Below, one piece after another: positions 6,470 to 63,804 of a stretch of 64,000 nucleotides of DNA. The notes beneath the pieces are model-generated. The model ran no database searches. It was not told the DNA's origin and was given only the letters and a program-made list of their open reading frames with translations. Position 1 is the stretch's first letter; each line of letters begins with the position of its first letter. The translations under genes and the position numbers were made by a program. The stretch is from Streptomyces phaeolivaceus (GTDB lineage: Bacteria; Actinomycetota; Actinomycetes; Streptomycetales; Streptomycetaceae), in assembly GCF_009184865.1 (NCBI RefSeq), contig NZ_CP045096.1, forward strand, positions 992,001-1,056,000, written 5' to 3'.

Positions 6470-7636
6470 TCAGCCCAAGGCCGCACGGCTCCGTGCGGCG
6501 GTTGCGCCGAGCGGCTTGGCCGGGCCGTCGTGGTGGATCGGGATGTGCGCGCCGGTCAGCGGCGCGCCGGTGCCGCCGCGCCGGGCGGCGACGACTTCGG
6601 CGGCGATGGACAGTGCGGTCTCCTCCGCGGTCCGCCCCCCGAGATCGAGGCCTATGGGAGAGCGCAGGCGTGCCAACTCCCCCACGGTGACTCCGGCATC
6701 GCGCAGACGCCGTTGGCGATCTTCGTGGGTGCGGCGGGAGCCCAGGGCCCCGATGTACGCGACCGGTAGCCGCAGTGCCAGCCGCAGGAGCGGGATGTCG
6801 AACTTGGCATCGTGGGTGAGCACACACAGCACGGTGCGTCCGTCCATGGCGGTCGCTGCGAGATAGCGGTGCGGCCAGTCGACGACCACCTCGTCCGCGT
6901 CCGGGAACCGTGCTCTGGTGGCGAACACGGGGCGGGCGTCGCACACGGTCACGTGGTAACCGAGGAACTTGCCGAGCCGCACCAGCGCCGAGGCGAAGTC
7001 GATCGCGCCGAACACGATCATGCGCGGTGCCGGAACGGTCGACTCGACCAGCAGAGTGAGCGGCCGTCCGCAGTACGAGCCGTCGGCCCCGACGGTGACC
7101 GTCCCGGTGCGCCCCGCGTCCAAGAGCGCTCGGGCCTCAGCGGCGGCCGTGCGGTCCAGTCCGGGGTGGGCGCCGAAGCCACCCTCGTACGAGCCGTCGG
7201 GGCGTACGAGAAGAGCGTGCCCCATCACCTCGGTCGGCCCGTCCGTGATCCGAGCCAGTGCCACGGCATCCCCCGCCTCGGCGGCGGCAAGCACCGTGGC
7301 GTACACGTTCCGTCCGGGAGTGTCCGAGCGGACCGGCGTGACGAGGATGTCGATGACTCCGCCGCAGGTCAGGCCCACGGCGAAGGCGTCGTCGTCGCTG
7401 TAGCCGAAGCGTGCCGACGTCGTCTCGCCGTCAGCCAGGGCCTGTTCGCACAACTCGTACACGGCCCCCTCCACGCAGCCGCCGGAGACCGACCCGATCG
7501 CCGTACCGTGGGCGTCGACGGCGAGCGCGGCGCCGGGTGGACGAGGCGTGCTGCCGCTCACCGCCACGACGGTGGCCACGGCGACGTCGCGTCCTTGCGC
7601 GATCCATGGGTGCAGGGCTTGGGCAATGTCCAGCAT
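6470..7636 (-). CDS. XdhC/CoxI family molybdenum-enzyme maturation factor
   Basis: A 388-residue protein. The N-terminal XdhC/CoxI domain has ATVVAVSGSTPRPPGAALAV, then GSVSGGCVEGAVYE and GLTCGGVIDILV. The C-terminal Rossmann domain has YIGALGSRRTHEDRQ and LRSPIGLDLGGRTAEETALS. XdhC proteins bind and sulfurate molybdenum cofactor before its insertion into xanthine-dehydrogenase-family enzymes. ATG at 7636 is preferred because GGAG lies seven bases upstream; TTG at 7648 is an alternative. It is the last gene of the CoA-ligase operon, 54 bases after the CocE-like gene, and plausibly matures the hydroxylase at 20.2-23.9 kb. Confidence 0.9.
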   Translation of the reverse strand: MLDIAQALHPWIAQGRDVAVATVVAVSGSTPRPPGAALAVDAHGTAIGSVSGGCVEGAVYELCEQALADGETTSARFGYSDDDAFAVGLTCGGVIDILVTPVRSDTPGRNVYATVLAAAEAGDAVALARITDGPTEVMGHALLVRPDGSYEGGFGAHPGLDRTAAAEARALLDAGRTGTVTVGADGSYCGRPLTLLVESTVPAPRMIVFGAIDFASALVRLGKFLGYHVTVCDARPVFATRARFPDADEVVVDWPHRYLAATAMDGRTVLCVLTHDAKFDIPLLRLALRLPVAYIGALGSRRTHEDRQRRLRDAGVTVGELARLRSPIGLDLGGRTAEETALSIAAEVVAARRGGTGAPLTGAHIPIHHDGPAKPLGATAARSRAALG

Positions 7637-7690
7637 GTCGTTCTCCAACCGGTTCCGGTCGAGCCGCGGATACGTCGCCGGTGGCGGGGT

Positions 7691-9403
7691 TCACAGAACG
7701 GGAAGCACCACGGCTGAAGGCCATTCGGGGCTCGAGTGGAGCGTGACGCGTCCGCCGAAGATCTCCGCCGGACGGTCCCGCGGATCGTCGTGCGACATGA
7801 AGACCACGGGTTTCTGACCCTCCGCCCGCTCGAAGTCCCGGCCGGCGATGGTCAGTTGCAGGCGGCTGCCTGCCGGGAGCCGCAGGCTGGTCGGCCAGAG
7901 CGAGACGGTCACCTCGTAGACCTCTCCAGGCACAAGGGGCTGTCGCTCGTCGTGGGTATGGAGAGGTTCCAGTTCGGTCGAGCGGTCGGGATCGAGCTTG
8001 CGCTGGGAGACCCGCAACCAGCCTTGCGTCAGCGGCGCGGCCGGGTCGACCGCGGCCAGGAACGTCACCTCCTCGCCATCGGGAGCGAACGCCTGGACCG
8101 TGATGAACAAGTCGGTGTCGGGGGTTTCACACGACAGCCAGAGCCGCGACGCGAGGGGCCCGGCGAGGGTCAGCTCCTCCTCCAGGGGGGCCGTCGAGAG
8201 GATCACAGCGTCCTCGAACGGCGAGTAGGAGGCCTGGGTGGGCCGCTCTGGTGCCGTCGGCGACAGCATGTTCTCGGCGAAGTCCAGGTGCAGGGACCGC
8301 AGGGTCGTGGAGGGCAGCGGCCAGTCCGAGCCTTCGACGATGTCGGCCCCGCCGTCGACGGTCCGGACCGCGACACTCACCCGCGACAGGTCGAAGTCGT
8401 TGTCGATCCCTTTCAGATGGCGGTCGAAGAAGGCCCGGAAGAGAGCGACCCGTTCGGGGGTGAAGAACGTGAAGAAGTAGGAGCCGTCTTCCACCAGAAG
8501 CCACTTCTCAGGTGAGGACAGCCCCTTCCAGCCGTTGATCGTCCCGCGTGACTGGAGCCCGAGCCCGCCCCAGTTCGCGACCACCAGCGCGGGCAGGTCG
8601 ATCGCCGCGAGATCGGCGGTCCGGGCCTGGTGCCACTCGTCGAGCAACGGATGGGCGAGAATCTCGCCGGGGTAGTCGACCCGGTTGCGGACCAGTTCCT
8701 CCTCGCTCAGCGGCGGACCGGTGTTGACCTCGCCGGTGTACATGTCGGGCAACGTGCAGGCGGGGTTGCCGTGCTGGTTGTTCTTCCCTTCGCGTTCCCA
8801 CCAGTGGGTGGTGAAGCCGCTGGAGTAGATGCCGTCGTTGTGGGTGCGGTCGCGGTAGAAGTCGTAGGTCCCCTGGCAGGGGATGATCGCCTTCAAACAG
8901 GGTGCTTTGCGCGCCGCGACCCGCCAGTTCGCCGCGGTGATGTAACCCAGCCCGACCAGTCCCACCGATCCGCTGCTCCACGGCTGCTCGCCGGCCCAGG
9001 CGATCGCGTCGCAGCAGTCGTCGATCTGCGCCGGCGAGTTCGGCTCCATGAAGCCTGCCGACTTGCCCGTGCCCCGCACGTCCATCTGCACCACGGCGTA
9101 GCCGTGACAGACCCACACCTCGGGATCTATGCACTCCCAGATCATGTGCTGCCCGGACGAGGCCTCGAGAACCTCCGGGTAGTGATCGAGCAGCACCTGC
9201 CAGACGGACGGGAACAGATTCCGGACGTGCACGTCCTTGCCGTACGGCGTCGCCGACACGATCACCGGGCAACGGCCGCCGTCGGCGGGCCGGTAGACGT
9301 TCGCCCGCAGCACGGCACCGTCGCTCATGGGGATGGCGACGTCGCGCTCGACCAGCATCTCCGGCCCACCGCTCGTTCCCGCTGCCGTTCCCGGCGCGCT
9401 CAT
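7691..9403 (-). CDS. CocE/NonD-family hydrolase-like protein lacking the nucleophilic serine
   Basis: A 570-residue protein with CocE/X-Pro dipeptidyl peptidase architecture. The N-terminal alpha/beta-hydrolase part has VIVSATPYGKD near residue 48 and VVQMDVRGTGKSAG near residue 105. A cap region and a C-terminal jelly-roll domain (PGEVYEVTVSLWPTSLRLPA, then GSRLQLTIAGRDFER) follow. The nucleophile elbow, normally GxSYxG, reads VGLVGLGYITAAN, so glycine replaces the catalytic serine. The gene overlaps the enoyl-CoA hydratase stop by four bases. In most relatives this family cleaves esters or amides; here it may be inactive, use another residue, or bind ligand only. The substitution is seen directly in the DNA (GGT). 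Confidence 0.85.
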   Translation of the reverse strand: MSAPGTAAGTSGGPEMLVERDVAIPMSDGAVLRANVYRPADGGRCPVIVSATPYGKDVHVRNLFPSVWQVLLDHYPEVLEASSGQHMIWECIDPEVWVCHGYAVVQMDVRGTGKSAGFMEPNSPAQIDDCCDAIAWAGEQPWSSGSVGLVGLGYITAANWRVAARKAPCLKAIIPCQGTYDFYRDRTHNDGIYSSGFTTHWWEREGKNNQHGNPACTLPDMYTGEVNTGPPLSEEELVRNRVDYPGEILAHPLLDEWHQARTADLAAIDLPALVVANWGGLGLQSRGTINGWKGLSSPEKWLLVEDGSYFFTFFTPERVALFRAFFDRHLKGIDNDFDLSRVSVAVRTVDGGADIVEGSDWPLPSTTLRSLHLDFAENMLSPTAPERPTQASYSPFEDAVILSTAPLEEELTLAGPLASRLWLSCETPDTDLFITVQAFAPDGEEVTFLAAVDPAAPLTQGWLRVSQRKLDPDRSTELEPLHTHDERQPLVPGEVYEVTVSLWPTSLRLPAGSRLQLTIAGRDFERAEGQKPVVFMSHDDPRDRPAEIFGGRVTLHSSPEWPSAVVLPVL

Positions 9404-10264: not shown

Positions 10265-12052
10265 TCAGAACTCATGCTCGGGGATGGCCATGACGGCGCT
10301 CCCGCCGGCCCGGATCCGGATGGCGAGCGTCTCGATCTCGGGCAGCAGGTAGGAGCAGTAGAAGCGTGCGGTCCGCAGCTTGTTCTGGAGGAACGTCGGG
10401 TCCGCCGGGGCCCCCTGCAGACCCTTGTCCGCAGTGCCGGCCATCTTCGCCCACATGAACCCGAGGGAGAGGTACCCCACCATGTGCAGGTAGTCCAGCG
10501 ACACCGCCGCCATGCCTTCCGGGTCCCTCTTCCAGCGGGGGAGTTCCTCCTGTGTGAGCCGCACGACCGAGTCCAGGGCCTGTCGCAGCTCGTCGGTGAT
10601 GCCGGGCAGACCGGTCCCGTCGAGCAGGTCGAGCGTCTGCCGGATCGAGTCGAAGTACCGGCTCAGGGTCTGGGCGTCGTCGCCCACCACTTTGCGGCCG
10701 ATGAAGTCCATCGCCTGGATGCCGCTGGTTCCCTCCCCCAGCCGCAGCATCCGCACATCTCGCAGGTACTGCTCGGCACCGTTGTCCTGTATGAAGCCGT
10801 GTCCGCCGAAACACTGCAGCGCGATGTCGGTGCACTCGGATGCCTTGTCGGACAAGAACGCCTTGACCACGGGCGTGAGCAGCGAGACCAGTGCCTCGTG
10901 GGCCTCCTCCTCCAGTGGGTCGGGGTGAACCGCGGCGAGGTCCAGGTTCAGGCTCACCCAGAAACAGAAGGCCCGCCCGCCTTCGACCAGGGCACGCATC
11001 GTCATCAGCATCCGGCGTACGTCGGGGTGCACGATGATCGGATCGGCGGGCAGCTCGGGATGCTTGGGGCCGGTCACCGAGCGTCCCGCCAGGCGCTCGC
11101 GGGTGTAGTTCAGCGCGTTGCGGTAGGCCGCGTCCGATACGCCCACGGCACAGGCTCCGGTCGCCAGCCGCATGTGGTTCATGATGATGAACATGTTCGC
11201 CATGCCGCGGTTCGGGGCTCCGACGAGATAGCCGGTCGCACCGTCGAAGTTCGTCACGCAGGTCGGGCTGGCGTGGACGCCGAGCTTCTTCTCCAGCGAG
11301 CTGACGGAGAACCCGTTACGCTCACCGAGTTCGCCGTCGGGCCCCACGAGGTACTTCGGGACGAGGAACAGGCTGATCCCCCTGATCCCTTCCGGTGCGT
11401 TGGGCAGCCGCGCGAGGACGAGGTGGACGATGTTCTCGGTCAGGTCGTGATCGCCCCAGCTGTTGAACATCTTCGTGCCGGTGATCCGGAAGCTGCCGTC
11501 GGCGTTCAGCTCCGCCCGGGTCCGCAACAGACCCAGCGCCGTTCCGCAGTGGGGTTCCGTCAGCGACATCGCCGTCATCCACTCACCGGTGACGATCTTC
11601 GGCAGGTACCGGGCCTTGAGTTCGTCGGAGGCACGCCGGCTGATCACCTCGTACGCGCCCGGTGAGGTGAGTGGGGCCATGGCGAAGGAGAAATTGGCGC
11701 CGGCGAGTACCTCCTCGATGATGGTGTAGAGGAAGCCCGGCATGCCGTCGCCACCATCCTCGGTGCGACAGGTCAGCGAAGGCCAGCCGCCGTCGACGTA
11801 GCCACGATAGGCGTCGACGAAGCCGGGCGCGCACACGACACCGTCCGGGCCCAGTGTTGCGCCCACGCGGTCGCCTTCGGCGTTCCACGGTGCGATCTCC
11901 TTGGCTGCGAAATCGCCGAAAAGATCGATCGTGGACGAGACGAGGTCTTCGTCGACGTTCTCGAAACCGGAGAACTCCGTCAGGTGTCCCACGGCGAGGA
12001 CATCGTTGAGGACGAACTTCAGATCGTCCAGGGGAGGTTGGTAATCAGGCAT
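10265..12052 (-). CDS. Acyl-CoA dehydrogenase, long form (DmdC-like, ~600 residues)
   Basis: A 595-residue flavoprotein, longer than classical ~390-residue acyl-CoA dehydrogenases and matching the DmdC/long-form group with an extra C-terminal domain. Visible motifs are MSLTEPHCGTALGLLRTRAE and ITGTKMFNSWGDHDLTENIV (flavin contact), the Arg-rich ALQCFGGHGFIQDNGAEQYL, and LRLGEGTSGIQAMDFIGRK, whose Glu corresponds to the usual catalytic base. The ATG start follows AAGGA. It sits 44 bases after the CoA ligase and should oxidise the acyl-CoA the ligase produces, passing electrons to ETF. Confidence 0.92.
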   Translation of the reverse strand: MPDYQPPLDDLKFVLNDVLAVGHLTEFSGFENVDEDLVSSTIDLFGDFAAKEIAPWNAEGDRVGATLGPDGVVCAPGFVDAYRGYVDGGWPSLTCRTEDGGDGMPGFLYTIIEEVLAGANFSFAMAPLTSPGAYEVISRRASDELKARYLPKIVTGEWMTAMSLTEPHCGTALGLLRTRAELNADGSFRITGTKMFNSWGDHDLTENIVHLVLARLPNAPEGIRGISLFLVPKYLVGPDGELGERNGFSVSSLEKKLGVHASPTCVTNFDGATGYLVGAPNRGMANMFIIMNHMRLATGACAVGVSDAAYRNALNYTRERLAGRSVTGPKHPELPADPIIVHPDVRRMLMTMRALVEGGRAFCFWVSLNLDLAAVHPDPLEEEAHEALVSLLTPVVKAFLSDKASECTDIALQCFGGHGFIQDNGAEQYLRDVRMLRLGEGTSGIQAMDFIGRKVVGDDAQTLSRYFDSIRQTLDLLDGTGLPGITDELRQALDSVVRLTQEELPRWKRDPEGMAAVSLDYLHMVGYLSLGFMWAKMAGTADKGLQGAPADPTFLQNKLRTARFYCSYLLPEIETLAIRIRAGGSAVMAIPEHEF

Positions 12053-12096
12053 GACAGTCCTTTCCAGCTTCCTCCGACTCGGTTGCGGACAACCGT

Positions 12097-13701
12097 TCAG
12101 CCGGACTCGGTCACGGCTTCCCGAGCCGGTTCTCCCGCTTCGCGGAGCCGCCGGCGGTTCAGCTTGTTGGTCGCCGTCCTCGGCAACGACGACACGAAGT
12201 GGAACTTGCGCGGGCGTTGGTAGCCCGACAGTGGCGACGTGGCCATGAAGTCCTCCAGGGCCTTCGCCGTCAACGACGGGTCACCGGTCACCACGAAGGC
12301 GTGGACCTGCTGGCCCCACTCCGGATGCGGCAGACCGACGACTGCCGCCTCAGTCACGGACGGATGGCCCAGCAGCACCTCTTCGACCGCGTTGGGCATG
12401 ATGTTGATGCCGCCCGAGATGATCATGTCGTCGCTGCGGCCCTCAAGGAACAGGAAACCGTCCTCGTCGAGTCGGCCCAGATCGCCGGAACGCCACCAGC
12501 GGCGGCCGTCCTCGTCCACGTGGAACAGCTTCGCTGTCAACGCCTCGTCGCCCCAGACGCCCTCGCCCACACTCGGCGAGGTCGCCATCACCTCGCCCAC
12601 CTCGCCGACCGGCATCAGGTCATGGGCGCTGCCGCCCTCCCGGACGATGCGCACCTCGGTGTTGAGACACGGGCGTCCGACACTGTTGAGGCGTTCACCC
12701 CGCATGTCCTTGGCGACGTTGACGCTGACCATGCCGAACATCTCGGTGGAGCCATAGGCCTGGACGATGTTCGGCGACACCGTGTCCCGGATCCGCCGCA
12801 GTGTGGTGCTGTCCATCGGCTCCGCGGCGAACTGGGCCTGGACGACGCTGGCGTAGGTGTCCGCGTTCGAGTCCAGCGTCAGCAGCTTGCGCCACATGGT
12901 CGGGGTGAGGGACACGTGCGTGATCCGCTCACGCCGGATGGCGGCCAGGTATTCCGGCAGGTCGAACTTCTCCAGGAACACACAGCACGCGCCCGCGTTG
13001 AGGAACGGCACCCACGTCGCATAGCACCCCGTGAAGGCGGTGCTGTAGGGCACGATCACCCGTTGTCCCGGACGCAGGCCGGCGTAGATCCCCAGGGCGG
13101 TGCGTGCCGCGTCCACCGCACCCCGATGGCTGTGCAGGACCCCCTTGGGCAGCGACGTCGTCCCCGAGGACAGGATGATCACAGCGGGGTCGTCCTCGGC
13201 CGGTACCGGCAGGTCGTGAGCCGGCGCGAACCCTGCCAGGTCCCGCGGGACTTCCCGCCCCGACACCAGTGCCTCGGCGGAACCCGTGGCGCCGGATCGC
13301 AGCGGGATCCCCCTGAGCGGACCGGCGCACACCTCGCCCATCGCGGTCAGGGTCGGCGTGAGCGACGCGTCGTGCAGCACGAGGCCGATGTCGAACTTGT
13401 CGCACAGCCGCGCCAGGAGTTGCGCCGCCTCACGGGTATGGAAGACCACCGGAATCGCACCTGACCGCACCACCGCCAGCCACGCCACCAGGTGCACCGT
13501 CGAAGGCAGGGTCAGCAACCCCACGCGCATGCCGGGCACGACACCTTCGGCGCGCAGCAACGACACCATGCGGCGCGACGCCTCGTCCAGCTCACCGAAC
13601 GTCAACCGCGAGACGCTGTCCGCCGCGGCCTCGGAGTCGCGAAACACGCGCGCCACCCGATCGAACGCCGCACACACCGTCAACGGACTACCCGTCGACA
13701 T
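12097..13701 (-). CDS. Acyl/aryl-CoA ligase (AMP-forming)
   Basis: A 534-residue member of the ANL superfamily, with all core motifs visible: AVIILSSGTTSLPKGVLHSH (A3, phosphate loop), VQAYGSTEMFGMV (A5), WRSGDLGRLDEDGFLFLEGR (A7/A8) and the A10 lysine in TATNKLNRRRLRE. It activates a carboxylate with ATP and CoA. The ATG at 13701 is preceded by AAGGAG. It is the first gene of a five-gene minus-strand operon (ligase, acyl-CoA dehydrogenase, hydratase, CocE-like, XdhC), so it probably commits the operon's substrate. The benzoate/cinnamate/fatty-acid ligase subgroups cannot be separated by eye. Confidence 0.92.
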   Translation of the reverse strand: MSTGSPLTVCAAFDRVARVFRDSEAAADSVSRLTFGELDEASRRMVSLLRAEGVVPGMRVGLLTLPSTVHLVAWLAVVRSGAIPVVFHTREAAQLLARLCDKFDIGLVLHDASLTPTLTAMGEVCAGPLRGIPLRSGATGSAEALVSGREVPRDLAGFAPAHDLPVPAEDDPAVIILSSGTTSLPKGVLHSHRGAVDAARTALGIYAGLRPGQRVIVPYSTAFTGCYATWVPFLNAGACCVFLEKFDLPEYLAAIRRERITHVSLTPTMWRKLLTLDSNADTYASVVQAQFAAEPMDSTTLRRIRDTVSPNIVQAYGSTEMFGMVSVNVAKDMRGERLNSVGRPCLNTEVRIVREGGSAHDLMPVGEVGEVMATSPSVGEGVWGDEALTAKLFHVDEDGRRWWRSGDLGRLDEDGFLFLEGRSDDMIISGGINIMPNAVEEVLLGHPSVTEAAVVGLPHPEWGQQVHAFVVTGDPSLTAKALEDFMATSPLSGYQRPRKFHFVSSLPRTATNKLNRRRLREAGEPAREAVTESG

Positions 13702-53357: not shown

Positions 53358-54370
53358 TCAGGACGACTGCGCGCTCTGGTACAGGTTCTGCGCGTCGGTG
53401 CCGAAGTACGGCCCGTACATCCGGTTGGGCAGGAAGTTGTACTTGAAGCTGTTCACCGAGGACAGCAGGCCGGTGCCCGTGGACTCGTTGAACTGGGTGA
53501 ACCAGGGGCCGCCGCTGGAGCCGCCGGTCATGTTGCAGTTGATGCCGTGGTCGTCGGAGAGCAGGAAGTCACGGTTCGTGGTGCCGCTGCAGTAGATGAA
53601 CCTCTCCCCGTCGTACGGGGCGGCGGCGGGGAACCCGAAGGCGTACATGGTCTGGTTGTAGCCGGTGTTGAAGGCCAGTCCCTGCCCGCCGACGACGTCC
53701 GTCAGCAGCCTCCCGTCCAGCGGGGCGACGACGGCCGCGCCGACGTCGTAGTTGATGTCCTCGCTCGCGGTCCACTGCGGTGTGGACATGGTCTTCGTGG
53801 CGCTCCATCTGCCGTACGGGGCCTGGCCGTCGTGGTAGCCGGGCACGAAGACCCAGTTGGTGTGCCAGGCGCCCTCCAGCTTCACACAGTGCCCGGCGGT
53901 GATGACGGTGCTCTTGTTGGCGCTGGTGACGGCGTTGCCGGAGCACGACGCCGTACGTCCCTGGTAGGTGAAGAACACCCGTCCGGCCGTGGAGACCACG
54001 GCGCCGCCGCCGGTCCAGGGCCCGCCGCTCTGGGGGAAGGCAAGCACCCCGACATCGGTGGGGGCGCCCGGAAGGGTGGGGCGACGGTCCTTTTCTCGCC
54101 CTTGGCGAGCGAGGGTGCCTTCACCCCGACGCGGTCCACGGGCAGCAGATCCAGCGGGGCGGCCCCACGCATCCGTTCCGTGGTCCAGAACGACGCGGGG
54201 TCCGCGGAGGCCGTGGCCGCCCCGGCGGGCGAGGCGACCACGCCGGTGCCGAGCAGCGCGGCGGCGCCGAGCAGGGCGGCGGCGCCGAGCAGGGCGGCGG
54301 CGCCGAGCAGGGCGGCGAGGACGGAGCGGGACTTGCGCGGGCGGCGGGCCCCGCGGCGTATGTCTGTCAC
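53358..54370 (-). pseudogene. Secreted trypsin-like serine protease, one-base frameshift
   Basis: GTG 54370 (after AAGGGAG) begins a signal peptide, [17 protein letters not shown], and a propeptide down to [13 protein letters not shown]. One base is then missing near 54084, and the protease continues in another frame as [20 protein letters not shown]. The His (VITAGHCVK), Asp (DINYDVGAAVVAP) and Ser (CNMTGGSSGGPWF) are all present in that second frame. The likely ancestral text at the break is a run of three C bases reduced to two. The C-terminus is complete to 53358. Confidence 0.85.
54248..54318. repeat. 18-base tandem repeat encoding LLGAAA units in a signal peptide
   Basis: Four units of GCCGAGCAGGGCGGCGGC (starts 54248, 54266, 54284, 54302; the first with one change) build the hydrophobic core of the protease signal peptide. 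Unit number is likely to vary between strains. Confidence 0.75.
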
Positions 54371-54672
54371 GCGTACTCCCTTTGCGGTGGGGGACGAGGA
54401 CGAACTCGCGCAACGCAGAGTGCCAGCCCACCCGCAAGTTCGACAGGTGCACGTCACGATGGGCGCAAATCAACCCCTGGCCGGGGAGGCGCACCCATGC
54501 GCACCCATCCGGGCGAGGAGGCGGGCACGGTTCTCGGAACAACCGCACATTGGTCGGGAAGGCGATGTTTGCGGCGGCCGATGAAGGTCACCTGGCCCGC
54601 ACGGGACCGACAGGCTCCGGGCGCGGACGACGTGCCCGGTACGCCACCGCTCGTACGACGAGAGGCAGATTC

Positions 54673-56190
54673 ATGACGGAGACTCCCCCTGTCACCACGA
54701 CCGATTCCGGCGCCCCGGTCGAGAGCGACGAGCATTCGCTCACCGTGGGGCCCGCCGGTCCGATCCTGCTGCAGGACGCGTATCTGATCGAACAGATGGC
54801 CCAGTTCAACCGGGAACGGATCCCCGAGCGCCAGCCCCACGCCAAGGGAAGCGGCGCTTTCGGGCACTTCGAGGTGACCCACGATGTCAGCGCCTACACC
54901 AAGGCGGCCGTCTTCCAGCCGGGAACCCGCACCGACCTGGTCACCCGTTTCTCGACCGTCGCGGGTGAGCGCGGCAGCCCGGACACCTGGCGCGACCCGC
55001 GCGGCTTCGCGGTGAAGTTCTACACCGCCGAAGGCAACTACGACATGGTCGGCAACAACACACCGGTGTTCTTCGTGAAGGACCCGATGAAGTTCCAGCA
55101 CTTCATCCGGTCCCAGAAACGCCGCGCCGACAACAACCTGCGCGACCACGACATGCAGTGGGACTTCTGGACGCTCTCCCCCGAGTCCGCCCACCAGGTC
55201 ACCTGGCTGATGGGCGACCGCGGCATCCCGCGGTCCTGGCGCCACATGAACGGCTACACCTCCCACACCTACATGTGGATCAACGCCGCCGGCGAGCGTT
55301 TCTGGGTGAAGTACCACTTCAAGACCGACCAGGGCATCGAGTACTTCACGCAGCACGAGGGCGACCAGATGGCCGCCGCCGACACGGACTACCACACCCG
55401 TGATCTGTTCGAGCACATCCGCGACGGCGACTTCCCCAGCTGGACCCTGCATGTGCAGGTGATGCCGTACGAGGAGGCCGCGAGCTACCGCTTCAACCCC
55501 TTCGACCTCACCAAGGTGTGGCCGCACGGCGACTACCCGCTGATCCCGGTCGGCCGTATGACACTCGACCGCAATCCGACCGACAACCACGCGGAGATCG
55601 AGCAGGCGGCCTTCCAGCCCAACAACCTCGTCCCCGGCATCGGTCCCAGCCCGGACCGCATGCTGCTGGCCCGGCTGTTCTCCTACGCGGACGCGCACCG
55701 CCACCGGATCGGCGGCAACTACCAGCAGCTTCCGGTGAACGCCCCCGTCGTGGACGTCCACACCTACTCCAAGGACGGGGCGATGGCGTACCGGAAAACC
55801 GCCGACCCGGTGTACGCCCCCAACTCCAAGGGTGGTCCCGCCGCCGACACCGCGCGCCACTCCCCGCCCAGCTGGGAGGCCGACGGCGCCCTCACCCGTA
55901 CGGCCTACGTCAGCCATGCCGAGGACGACGACTGGGGCCAGGCCGGCACCATGGTGCGCGAGGTTCTGGACGACGCCGCCCGCGACCGTCTGGTCGACAA
56001 CGTCGTCGGTCATCTCCTCAACGGCGTCTCGGAGCCCGTCCTGAAGCGGGCCTTCGAGTACTGGTCGAACATCGACAAGAGCATCGGCGACCGTATCGCC
56101 CAGGGCGTACGCGCCAAGGCGGGCGAGAAGGATCCCAAAGCCGCCGAGCAGGGCAGTCCCGCCCGGCGCGGCATGCAGGACAAGGCCTGA
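54673..56190 (+). CDS. Monofunctional heme catalase
   Basis: A 505-residue clade-3-like catalase. The active-site His is in [20 protein letters not shown] near residue 55, Asn in [18 protein letters not shown] near 135, and the proximal Tyr in [20 protein letters not shown] near 345. NADPH-type region [14 protein letters not shown] is present. ATG 54673 follows AGGCAG. A Fur-type catR repressor, often next to catA in Streptomyces, is not visible here. The ~120 bases upstream show no obvious inverted repeat. Converts H2O2 to water and oxygen. Confidence 0.93.
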
Positions 56191-56429
56191 GCACGACGAC
56201 CTGACGAACCGACCCCCACGGTCACCCACGGTCACGCATGATCACGGTGGGTTTCCGCACAGCTCCGGCGTCGGCTCCGACGCCGGCTCCGACGCCGTGC
56301 CGGCTTCGCCGACGCGGAGACGCACCGATTCACGCACCGATTCACCCACCGATTCCGGTCCGATCAGCAGGAGGTCGACGCGCACCACCCTGACACGCCT
56401 TCAAGATGGTCCCCTCCCGCCTCGGTGTG

Positions 56430-56665
56430 CCGCACTGCGCGCCGGTGTCGGCCGAGGAGGATCTCATCCGCGCCGCCTACGTGCTCAACGCGGGCGAGAA
56501 GGACGCGATCCTGGTCGGGCAGGGTGCCCGCGGTGCCCGTCAGGAGGTGTTGGCGGTCACCTACCGGCTCGGCGCGGGAGTGGCCGAGGCGCTGCTCGGC
56601 AAGGACGCCCTCGACGACGACCTGCCGTACGTCACCGGCTCCATCGGCCCGCACATGGTCGGCCT
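56430..56665 (+). pseudogene. Pyruvate-oxidase-like (TPP enzyme) fragment
   Basis: A ~80-residue fragment reading VLNAGEKDAILVGQGARGAR, then LGAGVAEALLGKDALDDDLP and YVTGSIG, matches the central FAD-adjacent domain of pyruvate dehydrogenase (quinone)/TPP-dependent oxidases. Start and end of the gene are both missing; the frame then runs into the CGGGTCA repeat. The gap 56191-56429 has short tandem repeats of CCGATTCAC type and nothing else. Confidence 0.8.
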
Positions 56666-56703
56666 GCGCCACCCCTTCGAGGTCGACCTGGTCGGCGGCT
56701 TGA

Positions 56704-56738
56704 CGGGTCACGGGTCACGGGTCACGGGTCACGGGTGA
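56704..56738. repeat. CGGGTCA tandem repeat, five units
   Basis: Five 7-base CGGGTCA units (last one CGGGTGA) at the junction between the oxidase fragment and the TetR remnant. It probably arose by replication slippage at a rearrangement point. Confidence 0.8.
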
Positions 56739-56745
56739 CCGGCCA

Positions 56746-57060
56746 TCAGTCACCGCGCAGATAGCGGGTGACCATGTCCACCAGCTCGTTCTCGAACGTC
56801 TCGACCGGAATCGTGCGCGGACGTCCGGGTGCCGGCCGAGGAGTTCGCGGACCTGTTCGACGCGGTCCCTTCCGTGTCGTTCGATCGCGTCCAGCAGGTC
56901 CTGGGAGAACGACGCCTCCTCGATCATGACCCGCAGCAGCTGCGGGTCATCACGGTGCTCCTGGAACACCCGCTCCAGCCACTCCCGCCACCGGGCCCGC
57001 GCCACCACCTCGGCCCGTTCGCCACCGTCCGCCCTGGCCTGACCAACTCCTCGCTCTCCG
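56746..57060 (-). pseudogene. TetR-family regulator, C-terminal remnant
   Basis: ARWREWLERVFQEHRDDPQL, LRVMIEEASFSQDLLDAIER and HPDVRARFRS form a TetR ligand-domain segment. After about 56830 the frame shifts and continues RTIPVETFENELVDMVTRYL followed by RGD and stop at 56746. The DNA-binding half is absent. It lies directly next to the oxidase fragment. Confidence 0.75.
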
Positions 57061-57169
57061 CCTGGAGTTCCTCCTCGGCGGTACCGCCGCCGGCCCCGCG
57101 TCCCACAAGAGAGGTCATGGGCGCTCCGGCACCTCGGCTCGCTGCGAACTGCCGCGCTCGGGCATGCGT

Positions 57170-59011
57170 TCAGCGAACAGTCGAGGCGTTGGATGTGTCG
57201 GAGGCTTCCGTGCGGGGCGCCTCCGTGGCGGGCTCCGCCGCGTCCGGCTTTTCTGAGTCCGGCTTTTCTTCGTCGGACTTTTCTTCGTCGGGCTTTTCCC
57301 CGTCCGGCGTCTCGCAGGTGATCTCGTCGCGTGGGGTGTAGTGGGTGTGGAACGGCTGCCGCTTCACTTCCTTGCCGTCGTTGTAGAAGACCCGGTCGAC
57401 GGTGACGTCGAAGCCCTCCAGCGGGGTCTGGGGCACACACTTCTCGTCGGTGCTGACCTTCTTCGCCGGGGGTTTGACGTCGGTCCGGGGGCCCTTCTCC
57501 GACTTGATCTCGTCGTACTTCTTGGTGCCGATGAAGCTGACGGTCACCGACGTGTCGGTGGCCTCGGCCTGGATGTACACCGCGTTGCCGGAGTCGTTGG
57601 TGAACCGGAGGTCGAGGCTGCCCCAGGCGACCGTGGCCTCACGGCCCTCCGGGTAGCGCTCGATGTAGAAGGAGTGGGCGCCGTACTCCACGGGCTCGAC
57701 GCCGGCGAAGTACATCGCGTTGAACACGGTCGTGGCCACGGCGGAGACCCCGCCGCCGGATGCCTTGGTGAACTGGTCGTCGAGGATCATGATGCCCTCG
57801 ACGAAGCCGTTGGCCTTGGTGCGTTCGCCCACGGTCCGGTTGAAGCTCCAGGTCTTGTCGGGCATGACGACGGAGCCGTTGATGAGCTGGGCGGCCCGCC
57901 CGATGTTCTTCGTGCGGTACGCGGCCGGTTCGAAGTTGACCGTGAAGGACGACATCTTCTCCGTCAGCCCGAGCCGCGCCGCGTTCTCGCGGGTCACCTC
58001 CGGCTGGATCCGTCGCACGGCCACTTCCCCGGTACGGGCGCCGGCGCCCGTTTCGGTGAGCAGCGGCAGCACGGCCTTGCCCAGCGCCTTGTCGGTGACC
58101 TGTACGCCGGTCCGGGCGTCGTCGGCCACCACGGCTCGGTCGCCGTCCAGCCGTAGTTCGGCGTTCTCGGCCTTGGTGGTGATGTCGTCCAGGGGGCCGG
58201 CGACCGCGGGTGCCGAGCGCAGGCCCTTGCCGTCCAGCGTCGGTATCAGCCTGCCGGAGTCGTCCGGCCGCATCGTCAGGTACTCGCCCACGACGGCCGG
58301 AGTGACCGTGAACTGTCTGCCGCCCGCGGTGAGCGTGACGGGTCCCGACATGGCCGGCCGCGCGAACTCGCGCACCGCCCGCCGCACCTCCTCGGCCGCC
58401 ACCTTCGGCTCGGTCTCGCGGGTGGGCAGCGCCGTGACCGTGTCCGCCGCGCCGTGGAGGAAGGAGGTCCGCAGGGTGCCGACCGCGGCGTCCACGTCCA
58501 GGGCGTGGCCCCGGTGCGGTGCGACCTGCTCGACCTGGCCGTCGTCGAAGGTCACGGCCCCCTCGCGGACCTTCTGGTCGAGGTTCCGCGCCAGCTTCCC
58601 GAGAACGGTGCGGGCCTTGTCCTCGTCGACGCGTACGACCGGCTCGATGTCACCCCCCGACCGGAAGAACCCGCCGACCACGCCGACCGGATCCGAGGCT
58701 GTGCGCGTCGCCCTGTCGACGGTCCCCTCGGCGTCGAAGGTGAGTCCGGCCTGCCGCGGGTCGACGGTCCCGGCGCGGTCGCCGACCGTCACGGCCAGCT
58801 CCCGTGAGCCGGCCACCGCCAGGTGTGCGTCCAGCTTGCGGATGGCCTCGGTGCGGCTGAGGCCACCGATGTCCACGCCGCGCACGGTCGTACCCGCTTC
58901 GATCTCACCGCCCGTGACCAGCAGCGCGGCCAGATACAGGCCACCGAGGCCGACGGTCAGCACACCGCCCGTCAGGGCAAGGGGCGGCACGGAGGCTATT
59001 CGAGGGCGCAT
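57170..59011 (-). CDS. VanW-family protein with membrane anchor
   Basis: A 613-residue protein: single membrane helix near residues 10-33 (LALTGGVLTVGLGGLYLAAL), two or three PG-binding-4-like repeats (GAVTFDDGQVEQVAPHRGHA, DDARTGVQVTDKALGKAVLP), then the VanW domain with NIGRAAQLINGSVVMPDKTW, FNRTVGERTKANGFVEGIMI and GGGVSAVATTVFNAMYFAGV. The tail is an EKPDEEKSDEEKPDSEKPD charged repeat. VanW proteins occur with glycopeptide-resistance clusters and elsewhere in actinomycetes, with unknown chemistry, probably in cell-wall maintenance. No van genes are near. ATG follows GGGAGA. Confidence 0.88.
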   Translation of the reverse strand: MRPRIASVPPLALTGGVLTVGLGGLYLAALLVTGGEIEAGTTVRGVDIGGLSRTEAIRKLDAHLAVAGSRELAVTVGDRAGTVDPRQAGLTFDAEGTVDRATRTASDPVGVVGGFFRSGGDIEPVVRVDEDKARTVLGKLARNLDQKVREGAVTFDDGQVEQVAPHRGHALDVDAAVGTLRTSFLHGAADTVTALPTRETEPKVAAEEVRRAVREFARPAMSGPVTLTAGGRQFTVTPAVVGEYLTMRPDDSGRLIPTLDGKGLRSAPAVAGPLDDITTKAENAELRLDGDRAVVADDARTGVQVTDKALGKAVLPLLTETGAGARTGEVAVRRIQPEVTRENAARLGLTEKMSSFTVNFEPAAYRTKNIGRAAQLINGSVVMPDKTWSFNRTVGERTKANGFVEGIMILDDQFTKASGGGVSAVATTVFNAMYFAGVEPVEYGAHSFYIERYPEGREATVAWGSLDLRFTNDSGNAVYIQAEATDTSVTVSFIGTKKYDEIKSEKGPRTDVKPPAKKVSTDEKCVPQTPLEGFDVTVDRVFYNDGKEVKRQPFHTHYTPRDEITCETPDGEKPDEEKSDEEKPDSEKPDAAEPATEAPRTEASDTSNASTVR

Positions 59012-59036: not shown

Positions 59037-59237
59037 GGCGGTGCACTCGCGGTGCGCTCGGCGAGGCGGTGCGCTCGATGAGGCGGTGCGCTCGGCGAGG
59101 CGGTGCCACGGACGGAGCAAGCACCTCAAGTTACCCATAACGGGCGACGAGGGCGTATGTCGCAGATCACTTCCGTCGCCGCGCCCCGCCCCTGTCCCTG
59201 TCCCTGTCCCTGCCCCCGTCCCCGTCCCCACCCCCGC
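59037..59237. repeat. Low-complexity intergenic repeats
   Basis: Two repeat runs in the 59012-59276 gap. GCGGTGCGCTCGGCGAG-type units (about three, 59052-59106) give way to CCTGTC/CCCGTC hexamers (59189-59237). They carry no gene. They may be expansion-prone spacers. Confidence 0.6.
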
Positions 59238-59276
59238 CAGCCCTGGGCGTGCGATCGATATAGCCGTACATGTCGC

Positions 59277-59300
59277 GGTATCACCGGTACCATCGATACC
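59277..59300 (+). promoter_or_regulatory. 24-base operator abutting a leaderless toxin-antitoxin start
   Basis: GGTATC-ACC-GGTACC-ATC-GATACC: outer arms GGTATC/GATACC are inverted repeats and the middle GGTACC is itself a palindrome. The operator ends at base 59300 and the antitoxin ATG begins at 59301, so there is no ribosome binding site. TACCAT (59288-59293), seven bases before the ATG, fits a -10 box for a leaderless transcript. Binding here would directly block transcription start. Confidence 0.7.
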
Positions 59301-59597
59301 ATGGCGGATCCCAAAGCGATGAGTCTGCGCTTCCCCGACCCCGAGCAGCGGGCCGCCATCGCGGCTGCCGCGAAGCAGGCCGGGGTCAGCATGCAGGAGT
59401 ACATCCTCTCGGCGGCCTACGACCGTGCGACCGCCGTGGAGCGGCGGTTCCTGGAGGGCTTCGGTGCCTCCACGGCCCGCAGCGGCGCCGCCTTCGCGGC
59501 CGGGTCCGGCACCGTGGATCCGAGCGCCGAGCAGCGGGCGGCCGAGCGGCAGGCCCGGCAGGAACTCGACGCCCGGGAGCGAGGCCGCGTCACATGA
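59301..59597 (+). CDS. Ribbon-helix-helix antitoxin
   Basis: A 98-residue protein with an N-terminal RHH/Arc-type DNA-binding segment: MSLRFPDPEQRAAIAAAAKQ, then AGVSMQEYILSAAYDRAT. The C-terminal tail is rich in Ala, Glu and Arg, as in antitoxins that wrap their toxin. The last four bases overlap the toxin ATG. It probably binds the operator immediately upstream. Cytoplasmic; a leaderless start is likely. Confidence 0.83.
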   Translation: MADPKAMSLRFPDPEQRAAIAAAAKQAGVSMQEYILSAAYDRATAVERRFLEGFGASTARSGAAFAAGSGTVDPSAEQRAAERQARQELDARERGRVT

Positions 59598-59977
59598 CCC
59601 CGCCGCGCCCCGTCCCGCTCGATGTCACGTTCCTGCTGCACGCCGCCGAGCGCCTCGACGGTGGCCCACGGATCGACGACTACGGACCGTTCTACGCCGC
59701 TGTCGCCCGGGTCAACGCCAAGGCGTTGGAGCACGACATGTACGGATCCCCGTACCTCAAGGCCGCCGCACTCCTGCAGACCCTCGCGAAACTGCCGTGC
59801 CTGGAACACTCCAACGCGGCCTTCGCCTGGCACGCCACCGAGGCCTATCTGATCCTCAACACCCGCGCCCTCGACTACCCGCCGGAGGCGGCCGTCGCGC
59901 TCGTACGCGACGCCGCCTCCGGAACGCTCGGCGTCGCCCGGATCGCCCGTCGGCTGCGCGACTGGAGCGCCGCGTAG
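59594..59977 (+). CDS. Fic/Doc-fold toxin-like protein with altered active site
   Basis: A 127-residue helical protein in the toxin position of a Phd/Doc-like pair. The core helix reads LLQTLAKLPCLEHSNAAFAW, where Doc/Fic proteins have a HxFxx(D/G)N(K/G)R motif: His is Leu, and the KR pair is AA. The surrounding pattern (helical repeats, SPYLKAAALLQTLAK) still fits Fic/Doc. Related Streptomyces proteins called Fic-type toxins share this kind of loss, so it may be a family with another mechanism. The stop lies in a GC hairpin (59968-59986). Confidence 0.72.
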   Translation: MTPPRPVPLDVTFLLHAAERLDGGPRIDDYGPFYAAVARVNAKALEHDMYGSPYLKAAALLQTLAKLPCLEHSNAAFAWHATEAYLILNTRALDYPPEAAVALVRDAASGTLGVARIARRLRDWSAA

Positions 59978-60014: not shown

Positions 60015-62039
60015 TCAGGACGGGCCCAGGATCGCCGAGGTGCGGGGGTCGGGGAGTGGGTCGGTGGCGCGGGGTGTGGCGGGGACGAAGACCGGGGCGT
60101 CCTGCTGGTAGAAGATGTCGATGTCCGCCTCCTCGCCGCCGACGATGAGGGTGTCCCACGCGCCGCTCTCCTGGAGCGTCCGCAGGGTCGAGGGCGCCAA
60201 CGCGGCAAGGTGGGACCGCAGTTGCTCATCGTCGGGCAGGCCCGGCAGGCGTTCCGCGAGGCGCTCGCGGATGGACCGCATACGGTCCAGCAGGATCTCC
60301 ACGTCGGCCCCCGACGCCCCAGCGGACGCCGAGCCCCCGGCAGCCGACCCGGCAACCCGGGGCGCCGGCCCGGCGCCTCCGGCGGCAGGCCGGGCAACTC
60401 CGGCCGCCGGTCCCGCCGGTCCCGCCGTAGCCTCCATGCTGCGGTCGATGATGTCCTTGATCGCCCGGGTCACGCCCCGCTCGTCCGTCGTGACCATCGC
60501 GTTCCACGCGCGGCTCTTGTGGCGGTACTGCAGCATCGACATGGCCGCCTCGTGCCGGATGAAGTCCGCGTCGCGCAGCGGGCGGCCACGCCAGACGCGG
60601 CTGAGGGAGCGGGCCAGGGAGACGGCCGAGGCGAGGCCGCTGTTGAGACCGCGGCCGGGCCAGAAGTGGATGGCGTTGGCCGCGTCGCCCAGCAGGAAGC
60701 CGTACGTCCCGGGGCGGTCGGCGGTCGGGCGGGTCAACTGGGCGGTGAACCTGGGGCGTTGCACCATGTCCAGCCGGAACGACGTGATCGCGCTGAGGTC
60801 GTCCTCGTCGACGCCGAACAGCCGCAGCCCCTCCTGGATCCGCTTCCACAGCGGCGAGCCGCGCAGCAGCGCCGGCAGGAACAGCGTCCCGTGCGTCGGG
60901 CAGACGAACTCGTTGTCCTCGTGCCGGCTCATCACACACGGCCGGGCCGCGATGCACTCCTCGAAGACCTGCCGCACCGGGTCGATACCGATGACGTTGC
61001 GCGCCTCCTCACGGGTCAGCCGCATGTTCAGGAAGCCCTCGCCGCGCAGCGAGTTGAGCAGGAAGCGGTTCTGCGCCACCGTGAGCAGCACGCTCATCGG
61101 GTCCGAGAGCCGGGACTTGACCCGCAGCCCCAGGATCACGTCCTGGAGGTGCTCCCCGTCGAGGGAGTAGATGGTGGCGTCGGCCGCGCCGAAGCGGTCC
61201 GCGAAGTGCTCGCGGGTGCGGGACCGGCCGCCTTCGCAGATCACCAGCACATGGTCGCGGGCGATGAGGTGCCCCTGCTCCACCGGGTCGAACTTCTTCG
61301 GCACCAGACGGATCGCGGGCTTGCTGTTGGCCAGTTCCAGCAGCCGGTCCTCGATGTAGGCGATGCGGATGTTGCGGGGCGGGCGCCCGTCCACGGAGTC
61401 GGGTCCCAGCGGCCACATCTCGGAGAACTGGCCGCCGTCCCCGAACAGCGCCATCCGGATCTCCTCTGACAGGGCCAGATACTGCCGGCTCTGGACGGTG
61501 ACGACCTGCTGGCGCCGCACGTTGCCCTGGGTCTCGTCCTTCCAGACCACGGTGGTGCCGTCGCGGACCCACCGGCCGTCGTGGACGGTGACCGAGACCC
61601 GCCCCGGGAGCGCGTCCTCCAGCAGCAGCGCGAAGGCGAGGCCGACCGGGCCGCCGCCGGACACCGTGACCCGCAGCACACCTGGGTTCGCGGCGGCGTC
61701 GGCACGGGGCAGGGCGAGCTGGGAGAGGTCCATGACCGTCTCCACGGCCTCCTGCGTCTCGAACAGGAAGGTCTCGTCGCCGATACGGATGGTGTCGCCG
61801 GGCGTCAGCTCGTGCCGGGTGACGCGCAGCTCGTTGACGTACGTTCCGTTCCTGCTGTCGCGGTCGCGGAGCACGTACGCGCCGTTCTCGGTGACGATCT
61901 CGGCGTGGAACCGGGAGGCGCTGACGCTGACGATGACGACGTCGTTGTCGCTCTTGCGCCCGAACGTCAGCGGAGCGTCGCCGAGGACGACGCTCTGACC
62001 GGCGAATGGACCGCTGCGTCCCACTATGACCGACAGCAC
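60015..62039 (-). CDS. FHA domain fused to FAD-dependent monooxygenase
   Basis: A 674-residue fusion. Residues ~1-95 are an FHA phosphothreonine-binding domain with all marks: FGRKSDND (27-33), SVSASRFHAE (38-47) and DRDSRNGTYVN (59-69). From ~122 an FAD fold starts (VTVSGGGPVGLAFALLLED; GxGxxG at 128-133), continues with a substrate region, and ends the FAD fold with FLLGDAANAIHFWPGRGLNS near residue 455. An Ala/Gly/Pro linker and a helical tail (ILLDRMRSIRERLAERLPGL) follow. GTG start at 62039 follows AAGGAG. It lies 55 bases after the Ser/Thr kinase, so the kinase could recruit or regulate the oxygenase by phosphorylation. Confidence 0.85.
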   Translation of the reverse strand: MLSVIVGRSGPFAGQSVVLGDAPLTFGRKSDNDVVIVSVSASRFHAEIVTENGAYVLRDRDSRNGTYVNELRVTRHELTPGDTIRIGDETFLFETQEAVETVMDLSQLALPRADAAANPGVLRVTVSGGGPVGLAFALLLEDALPGRVSVTVHDGRWVRDGTTVVWKDETQGNVRRQQVVTVQSRQYLALSEEIRMALFGDGGQFSEMWPLGPDSVDGRPPRNIRIAYIEDRLLELANSKPAIRLVPKKFDPVEQGHLIARDHVLVICEGGRSRTREHFADRFGAADATIYSLDGEHLQDVILGLRVKSRLSDPMSVLLTVAQNRFLLNSLRGEGFLNMRLTREEARNVIGIDPVRQVFEECIAARPCVMSRHEDNEFVCPTHGTLFLPALLRGSPLWKRIQEGLRLFGVDEDDLSAITSFRLDMVQRPRFTAQLTRPTADRPGTYGFLLGDAANAIHFWPGRGLNSGLASAVSLARSLSRVWRGRPLRDADFIRHEAAMSMLQYRHKSRAWNAMVTTDERGVTRAIKDIIDRSMEATAGPAGPAAGVARPAAGGAGPAPRVAGSAAGGSASAGASGADVEILLDRMRSIRERLAERLPGLPDDEQLRSHLAALAPSTLRTLQESGAWDTLIVGGEEADIDIFYQQDAPVFVPATPRATDPLPDPRTSAILGPS

Positions 62040-62094
62040 GGAAACTCCTTCGGAGAGGCCAAATTAGTTCGATTATGTACGGTGTGTCGCCCTA

Positions 62095-63804
62095 TCACTC
62101 ACTGTTCGCACGGCAAGTCACCGAAAAAGAAACCGAGTTGGACTTGGCGTCGAACGGCGACCGGATCTCCACCGCCATCCCGCTGCTCAACGTCCCCTCC
62201 TGCGCGTACGTCGACAGCCGCACCGTCTCCCTCTTGGTGGTCTCGTCGCCCTCCCGGAACGCCAGAGTCCGCCACTCCCGGTCCACCACCGACCCGTTCT
62301 CCGAGACCCACCGGTAGGAGAACTGGACCGGCCGTTGGGACGTCTTGAACGTCGCCGTGAACCACGGTGCCCGGCCGTCCGCCGGCGGGCAGCTCCCGTC
62401 GTACGTGGTCGCACCGCCCGTCACCGTCACCGACACGGGCTGCGCCGCGTTCCCGCCGGTCCCCGTCCCACCGTCCTCGTCGCCGTCCCGGCCCACGAGC
62501 GCGTACGTCAGCCCACCACCGAGCAGAGCCAGCACGGCCGCCGCCGCTCCCATCAGATACCCGGTACGACGGTTGCGCCGCCCGGGGGCGGGAGTGGGGG
62601 CGGAGGTGGGAGTGGGGGTGGCAGTGGGGGCGGCGGTGGGGGCGGATACGGAAGCGGAGCCCTTGTCGGGTCCGAAGCCGGGGTCGGGCACCGTGATCGG
62701 TGGTCCGAACCCCGCCCCTCCAGGAGGAGGCCCGAACACCCCCAGCGGCGCGGACCTGACGGACACGGGCGTGGAGGCAGGCGTGGAGGCGGACGTGGGC
62801 GCGGGCGCGGGCGCGGTGGTGGGGAGTTCCTCAGCGGTGGTGACATCGGCGGTCACCAAGGCGGTGACGGAGTCCGTGGCGTCGGAGCCCGTGGCATCGG
62901 AGCCCGTGGCATCGGCGAGTGTGGCGTCGGCAGAGGCGTCCTCCCGTGACGGGAGCGCCGACTCCCCGGCGATCAGGCCGAGTTGGCGCCCGGCCTCCTC
63001 CGCCGTCATCCGCTGATCGGGGTCCTTGTGCAGCAGCCCTTCGATGACCGGTGCGAGCGGCCCGGCGCGGTGCGGCGGCGGCAGCTCGTCGTCCACGATG
63101 GCGCGCAGCGTGGCCAGGGCCGTCGTCCGACGGAACGGCGAACGGCCTTGTACGGCCATGTAGAGCAGGGCGCCCAGCGACCACAGGTCGGACGCGGAAC
63201 CCGGGGTCCGGCCCAACGCCCGTTCCGGCGCCACGTATTCGGGCGAGCCGACCACCTCACCGGTCATCGTCAGCGGTGAGTCGCCCTCGACGGTGGCTAT
63301 CCCGAAGTCGGTCAGCACGACCCGGCCCTCGTCGGCCAGCAGGACGTTGGCGGGCTTCACATCGCGGTGCAGCACTCCCGCGCCGTGTGCCGCGCGCAGT
63401 GCCGCCAGCACTTCGGCGCCGATGCGCGCGACCTCTTTGGGCGGCAGGGCGCCCCCGGAGCTGATGGCATCGGCCAGGGAGCGGCCCCGGACCAGTTCCA
63501 TGACGATCCACGGCCGGCCGTCGAAGGTGACGACGTCGTAGACGGACACCACCCCACGGGCGTTGACCCGCGCCGCCGCCCAGGCCTCCCGCTCCAGCCG
63601 GGCGTACAGCTGCGCGCTGCGCTGCGCGGGCAGTTCCGCGGCGGCACGGACCTCCTTGACGGCCGCCTCGCGGCGCAGCACCTCGTCGAGAGCGCGCCAC
63701 ACCGTGCCCATGCCGCCCTCGCCGAGTACGGACAGCAGTCGGTACCGGCCGGCGACCAGCCGTTCGCCACCGCCGTCCGGCGAGGCCGCGTCCTGGTTGG
63801 GCAT
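62095..63804 (-). CDS. Membrane Ser/Thr protein kinase with extracytoplasmic sensor domain
   Basis: A 569-residue PknB-type kinase: glycine loop LGEGGMGTVWRAL (27-39), catalytic Lys50, HRDVKPANVLL (146-156), TDFGIATVEGD (165-175), APERALGRTPGSASDLWSLG. A long Ala/Pro/Thr-rich linker (residues ~290-410) leads to one membrane helix (~415-437, GYLMGAAAAVLALLGGGLTY). The outer ~130-residue domain has two Cys (GSCPP and VTCRANSE) that could form a disulfide and a beta-sandwich-like pattern (PVQFSYRWVSENGSVVDREW). No PASTA repeats. ATG 63804 is followed by the FHA-FAD gene in the same operon. Confidence 0.88.
   Translation of the reverse strand: MPNQDAASPDGGGERLVAGRYRLLSVLGEGGMGTVWRALDEVLRREAAVKEVRAAAELPAQRSAQLYARLEREAWAAARVNARGVVSVYDVVTFDGRPWIVMELVRGRSLADAISSGGALPPKEVARIGAEVLAALRAAHGAGVLHRDVKPANVLLADEGRVVLTDFGIATVEGDSPLTMTGEVVGSPEYVAPERALGRTPGSASDLWSLGALLYMAVQGRSPFRRTTALATLRAIVDDELPPPHRAGPLAPVIEGLLHKDPDQRMTAEEAGRQLGLIAGESALPSREDASADATLADATGSDATGSDATDSVTALVTADVTTAEELPTTAPAPAPTSASTPASTPVSVRSAPLGVFGPPPGGAGFGPPITVPDPGFGPDKGSASVSAPTAAPTATPTPTSAPTPAPGRRNRRTGYLMGAAAAVLALLGGGLTYALVGRDGDEDGGTGTGGNAAQPVSVTVTGGATTYDGSCPPADGRAPWFTATFKTSQRPVQFSYRWVSENGSVVDREWRTLAFREGDETTKRETVRLSTYAQEGTLSSGMAVEIRSPFDAKSNSVSFSVTCRANSE
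62580..62645 (+). repeat. G-rich repeat (G4-prone) in kinase linker DNA
   Basis: The plus strand has repeated GGGGGCGG, GTGGG and GTGGGGG blocks over ~65 bases, encoding on the minus strand the Thr/Pro/Ala-rich kinase linker. Four or more G-runs with short loops make a G-quadruplex plausible. Confidence 0.5.

Follow-up and report, generated by a model that had tools for sequence, protein, structure and literature searches.

GarA and OdhI are stand-alone FHA proteins that carry a phosphorylated N-terminal tail and act on metabolic enzymes, and GarA is reportedly recruited by PknB through the activation loop of the kinase. The genes of the kinase PknH and of its FHA effector EmbR are adjacent in Mycobacterium tuberculosis. 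EmbR is described as being phosphorylated by PknH (PMC6213207), the PknF-Rv1747 operon of the same species as joining an upstream membrane kinase gene to the gene of Rv1747, an ABC transporter with two FHA domains (PMC3908365), neighbours of kinases as having proved to be substrates of these kinases (PMC4238996), and FHA genes of that genome as clustering with kinase genes (PMC1262709). Here we describe a two-gene locus of Streptomyces phaeolivaceus, located in a stretch of 64,000 nucleotides (NZ_CP045096.1, positions 992,001 to 1,056,000; hereafter the window), which encodes a membrane kinase and a protein that combines an FHA domain with a flavoprotein monooxygenase-like domain.

The genome holding the window is 10.2 Mb in size and contains 50 kinase-domain matches, which correspond to approximately 49 kinase genes. 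The arrangement noticed in a sequence-only reading of the window, namely a transmembrane kinase gene followed after 55 bp by a gene for a single FHA and flavoprotein polypeptide, was confirmed from the sequence, and the features of the locus are given below.

62095-63804, minus strand: transmembrane Ser/Thr protein kinase gene (Pkinase E-value 3.7e-45; frame of 592 amino acids; ATG at 63804, preceded by GGGGAG; stop at 62095; frame open from 63873)
62992-63744, minus strand: PknB-like kinase catalytic domain (amino acids 44-294 of the 592-residue frame; activation loop DFGIATVEGDSPLTMTGEVVGSPEYVAPE)
62490-62562, minus strand: single transmembrane segment, placed approximately by eye, with GRRNRR just before it
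62098-62508, minus strand: outer (extracytoplasmic) beta-sandwich domain, predicted with a predicted local distance difference test (pLDDT) score of 79.5; the membrane segment accounts for its first residues
62040-62094, minus strand: intergenic gap of 55 bp, containing the ribosome-binding site GAAGGAG of the downstream gene
60015-62039, minus strand: FHA-flavoprotein fusion gene (674 amino acids; GTG start at 62039; its own ribosome-binding site)
61752-62039, minus strand: FHA domain (amino acids 1-96, at the very start of the protein)
60405-61697, minus strand: group A flavoprotein monooxygenase-like domain (amino acids 115-545)
60105-60332, minus strand: conserved C-terminal helical segment ending in GGEEADIDIFYQ (amino acids 570-645)
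60018-60104, minus strand: C-terminal tail with the motif P[VI][FYH][VAI], specific to the kinase-bearing branch of the family

A search for terminator-like sites found none in the region that includes the 55-bp gap, a result of little weight given that shuffled sequences yield 0.9.

The locus shares with PknF-Rv1747 the adjacent membrane kinase, the upstream position of the kinase gene, and the fusion of FHA to a working domain; it differs in having one FHA domain and a flavoenzyme. As to the features of a PknF-Rv1747-type system, kinase adjacency in relatives was found in the close branch of the family only, the FHA site is intact, and the effector is not an ABC transporter. With a flavoprotein fold in place of the transporter, the pair would, by analogy, work like the PknF-Rv1747 system without being an Rv1747. 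The pairing of a kinase with an FHA effector is also shared with PknH-EmbR, in which the effector is a transcription regulator rather than a flavoenzyme, while GarA and OdhI act as stand-alone FHA proteins, whereas here an enzyme is fused onto the domain. An FHA-flavoprotein monooxygenase fusion was not found described in titles or abstract openings of the open-access literature, most subscription journals lying outside this coverage, and group A flavoprotein monooxygenases are not known to carry an FHA domain. A kinase with an adjacent FHA effector is thus a known arrangement, and a flavoprotein monooxygenase as the effector is an apparently undescribed output.

Both genes are present with the domain make-up listed above, the FHA and flavin motifs are intact, and the linkage of the two genes is long-lasting. 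We consider it fairly probable that they form a phospho-signalling module of the PknF-Rv1747 type, consisting of a kinase and an FHA-linked flavoenzyme effector. In such a module, the membrane kinase would autophosphorylate on threonines of the activation loop or of its threonine-rich inner linker, and the FHA domain of the partner would bind one of the resulting phosphothreonines, bringing the flavin enzyme to the kinase and altering its activity or location. The kinase may also phosphorylate the flavin enzyme, which would be the output of the module. We infer the binding of the FHA domain to phosphothreonine of this kinase, the activity of the enzyme and its control; a role of the kinase in switching the enzyme or setting its position is probable.

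The FHA-flavoprotein, searched for by its flavin part, occurs in 45 of 295 same-genus genomes, which fall by identity into a close branch (31 genomes, at least 80%) and a distant branch (14 genomes, 72-75%). The adjacency, whose restriction to this genome would have spoken against the sequence-only reading, extends beyond it: 30 of the 31 close-branch genomes have, at a distance of up to 5 kb and in two gene orders (21 tandem and 9 divergent; the exception is G574), a kinase that shares this outer domain, the outer-domain counts here and below being those among the matches listed, with the weakest matches lying beyond these. Among 71 named loci, which overlap with the genome set and thus do not give an independent count, 49 belong to the close branch and 47 of these have the kinase (33 in tandem and 13 in divergent order, plus L037, where the contig breaks off within a divergent kinase). 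From the 50 matches we estimate that about 2% of random sites would have a kinase no more than about 2 kb away.

The two close-branch named loci without the kinase are L040 and L051. At L040, a gene of the protein-arginine deiminase family (5720-7783) stands upstream, in the place of the kinase. L051 (8001-9698, Streptomyces fumigatiscleroticus) encodes the sole close-branch flavoprotein without an FHA domain, lacks a kinase in the 8 kb upstream, and has a long branch in the tree; a joint loss of reader and writer would fit the pairing, and a decayed gene or an assembly fault is possible.

The module is supported by the fact that the kinase is the sole widely shared neighbour of the FHA-flavoprotein gene and has persisted across a switch in orientation, with the divergent loci forming a clade in both protein trees. 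Beyond this pair, no cluster of neighbours includes more than 10 of 72 loci, although close relatives share further neighbours. This lack of another widely conserved neighbour makes a local pathway an unlikely source of the enzyme's substrate. No shared local pathway was found with Pfam among 19 neighbour proteins of 15 of the 22 distant-branch loci and one neighbour of L040; the proteins scanned include a rhamnogalacturonan lyase (L065, L071, which are sister loci), an amidase, an MFS protein, a P450, a sigma factor and a cupin/AraC protein, and such neighbours recur mainly among close relatives, for example the Microbispora loci.

In the FHA-flavoprotein tree (72 rows, quick method, support from the Shimodaira-Hasegawa-like approximate likelihood ratio test, SH-aLRT, midpoint root), the close branch forms one clade with support of 100, inside which the divergent order is a nested clade with support of 99; the nearest outgroup row, L052, has no kinase. 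In the kinase tree (61 rows, with four short paired kinases and one short core fragment omitted), the divergent kinases again group as a single clade, and a second clade is made up of 17 of 18 kinases encoded in other parts of the genomes. The exception, L112 (G516:C2:11677776), groups with a paired kinase and lies far from the one FHA-flavoprotein match of its genome, possibly as an orphan left after loss of an enzyme copy. The simplest account of these trees would be a single gain of the kinase beside an existing FHA-flavoprotein, followed by one flip and a few losses, and it depends on the midpoint root. We observed a high correlation between the kinase and FHA-flavoprotein distances (r = 0.865, 43 pairs, none of 2000 permutations as high), which indicates joint descent and not contact, because no third conserved neighbour served as a control.

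The residues G27, R28, S42, R43, H45, N64, G65 and T66 of the FHA domain, which we take from the FHA family to be the phosphothreonine site, are each invariant in 70 of 70 sequences of both branches; these and the flavin counts below omit L051 and L076. At L076 (8001-9728), which adjoins a divergent kinase, the first 82 FHA residues are unmatched, possibly owing to a frameshift or decay. The best solved relatives of the domain by sequence and model include the FHA domains of GarA/OdhI, EmbR and Rv1747. A specialisation of the FHA site to the kinase was considered and is unsupported, as branch-specific columns make up 5 of 96 in the FHA domain, with none at the phosphothreonine site; the linker contributes 0 of 18 columns, the flavin adenine dinucleotide (FAD) part 11 of 424 and the C-terminal part 2 of 86.

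All 49 kinase-branch proteins compared (those of 48 loci and of the window, with L051 omitted) carry the tail motif P[VI][FYH][VAI], as against 0 of 22 distant-branch proteins, which makes it a candidate docking element for the kinase. The same exclusive tail, together with the fact that GarA/OdhI are the closest FHA domains, could speak for an internal switch in which the kinase phosphorylates the flavoprotein and the FHA domain folds back on the phosphorylated site as in GarA/OdhI. We regard such a switch as quite improbable. There is almost no sequence before the FHA domain for a site of the GarA/OdhI type, the match to GarA beginning at profile position 3; the FHA domain needs a threonine in its target, and the tails of the divergent group mostly lack one (10 of 13 listed); and the restriction of the tail to one branch is confounded with descent.

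In the kinase, a long threonine-rich inner linker lies between the catalytic domain and the membrane segment, the orientation in the membrane being assumed from the positive-inside rule. No PASTA repeats were found by Pfam, and NF033483 gave 233.6 bits against a cut-off of 450; judged by these profiles, the protein would not be a PknB-type PASTA kinase. Its outer domain has two cysteines that are invariant in 66 of 66 relatives compared. This domain had no match at E 1 among PDB sequences, and Foldseek returned general matches only, mostly beta sandwiches, with none at E < 0.001, so its ligand cannot be inferred. Signal sensing by the outer domain and an oxidation at the membrane, both proposed in the sequence-only reading, are guesses. 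The TxTG pattern of the activation loop is kept in 59 of 61 kinase rows, the remaining two, both paired, having TMAG; since paired and unpaired kinases share it alike, the activation loop is not special to the pair.

A number of observations weigh against the proposed module. The kinase lies within 5 kb in 0 of 14 distant-branch genomes, and 0 of 22 distant-branch named loci have a kinase of the paired type nearby. The kinase neighbour is therefore conserved in the close branch (30/31 and 47/49) and not in the distant one; the fusion is independent of the kinase and wider than the pairing, and the FHA domain of the distant branch must have other partners. The paired FHA domain may have other partners too in a genome with some 49 kinases, among them a core paralogue of the paired one (G000:C2:1765047), and at L040 (Streptomyces bambusae) the enzyme is retained with no such kinase beside it. 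Except in the nearest kin, the tandem matches are 73-633 bp apart, so that a single transcript is not certain. The outer domain was matched in 179 of 295 same-genus genomes and stands beside the FHA gene in just 30 of them; it is thus not special to the pair. The branch-only tail motif is carried by the kinase-less L040 as well, in addition to being confounded with descent, and no FHA-site residue separates the branches, the differing FHA columns sitting elsewhere. The FHA domain alone correlates with the kinase domain at r = 0.457, and the flavin domain at r = 0.870. Finally, linkage and tree agreement are also expected from shared descent and joint transfer.

Several of these points would be explained if the FHA-flavoprotein served many kinases of the cell, the neighbour being only one of them, and if adjacency reflected mainly the joint transfer of two useful genes, which we consider somewhat unlikely. 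The commonness of the fusion without this kinase and the number of kinase genes in the genome point in this direction, as does mobility. The FHA-flavoprotein gene is carried by seven giant plasmid records of Streptomyces, which represent five named species or strains, and in the two of them that were viewed a kinase is directly upstream and an insertion sequence (IS) element is nearby; an eighth record, of Nonomuraea (11.85 Mb), looks like a chromosome. The distant-branch locus L059 (5291-13438, Sphaerimonospora mesophila) has different kinases on its two sides, namely a gene for an 844-amino-acid kinase immediately upstream and, downstream of it all, a kinase match at 11852-12649, and is possibly an independent kinase association. 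Within the kinase branch, however, the kinase is the sole widely kept neighbour, also after the flip, which joint transfer alone would not demand. At L077, labelled Actinoallomurus spadix, both genes are close to Streptomyces versions, and the record is possibly misnamed. The presence of the pair at this locus and on the two plasmids viewed also counts in favour of the module.

The output of the proposed module depends on the flavin domain, which structure comparison of the model places by overall fold in the group A flavoprotein monooxygenases. The glycines of the GxGxxG dinucleotide motif, located early in the domain (G128, G130, G133), and D452 of the GD motif are present in 70 of 70 sequences; at the DG motif, the first position is E269 in 63 of 70 and D in 7 of 70, followed by G270 in 70 of 70. 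Among the matches listed, the identity to group A enzymes (3-hydroxybenzoate 6-hydroxylase, kynurenine 3-monooxygenase, UbiH, tetracycline destructases and p-hydroxybenzoate hydroxylase) is 14-23%, and no close characterised relative was found. This distance from every enzyme of known structure, and the replacement of the usual aspartate-glycine by glutamate-glycine in most sequences, would suit a non-catalytic flavin domain acting as a redox or ligand sensor that reports from the flavoprotein to the kinase. Such a sensor seems unlikely to us, since the domain is strongly conserved throughout, flavin motifs and a substrate-side stretch included, which suits catalysis at least equally well. A MICAL-type monooxygenase, suggested by eye from a likeness of the motif GDAANAIHFWPGRGLNSG to MICAL, was dropped without being excluded; MICAL is absent from the 33 PDB sequence matches and from the 50 structure rows listed, which are other group A monooxygenases.

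Relatives of the flavin domain that lack FHA were also sought. A flavin-domain profile run against 296 genomes of the phylum found only the four same-genus members at E 1e-4, and a single-sequence search matched 11 further genomes (E 5e-5 to 9e-4). Protein searches for relatives covered the best 120 of 1100 and the best 120 of 1186 matches, with distant relatives beyond these. Among the matches listed, the fusion also occurs in Nocardiopsis, Microbispora and Micromonospora, a member of the family is present in S. avermitilis, and the named ones are mostly called 'FHA domain-containing protein', sometimes hydroxylase-like oxidoreductase or hypothetical protein. Among the 240 rows listed, P0119, P0159, P0220 and P0238 (short) have no FHA in the precomputed domains.

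The patchy occurrence of the FHA-flavoprotein (45/295 genomes), its presence on plasmids and the matches of the kinase to 34 PADLOC models, most of those listed being PD-T4-6 kinases, raise the question of a phage-defence or conflict system, a role that we consider highly improbable. The PADLOC matches of the kinase seem to reflect the kinase fold in general, no PADLOC family is matched by the FHA-flavoprotein, and the models of no single system are matched by both proteins. No recognised defence genes were found among twenty neighbours scanned with Pfam, no PADLOC scan of the neighbours having been made.

Other genes of the window lie beyond the FHA-flavoprotein gene. At 59103-59977 on the plus strand, a frame with a TacA1-like ribbon-helix-helix match barely above the cut-off overlaps by 4 bases with a 127-amino-acid frame without a Pfam match, and the two look like a toxin-antitoxin pair. 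A weak TetR C-terminal match below the cut-off at 56406-57440 on the minus strand, with the DNA-binding part unmatched and overlapping plus-strand frames, is perhaps a broken regulator gene. A catalase gene (53968-56190, plus strand) lies a few kb downstream of the flavoprotein gene and is not among the conserved neighbours of FHA-flavoprotein loci. Elsewhere in this genome, FHA matches near 0.36, 3.88 and 5.12 Mb of G000:C2 likewise lie less than about 5 kb from kinase matches; kinase-FHA neighbours thus recur within it.

In its most specific form, which we put forward only tentatively, the module would be a flavoprotein monooxygenase whose own phosphothreonine-reading domain places it under direct gating by a receptor-type Ser/Thr kinase, so that an outside signal could be turned into an oxidation without transcription; an older FHA-oxygenase would have been captured by a sensor kinase, and the two would then have spread as a cassette. 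To our knowledge, few substrates are known for the dozens of Ser/Thr kinases of Streptomyces, and the locus offers a kinase together with a candidate partner that is linked to it, co-inherited with it and has an enzymatic, assayable output; enzyme relatives that lack the kinase and kinase relatives that lack the enzyme provide natural controls. Provided that the link is real, phosphothreonine signalling controls an oxygenase directly, and a receptor-kinase-gated flavoprotein monooxygenase would, if true, represent a new class of output for bacterial kinases.

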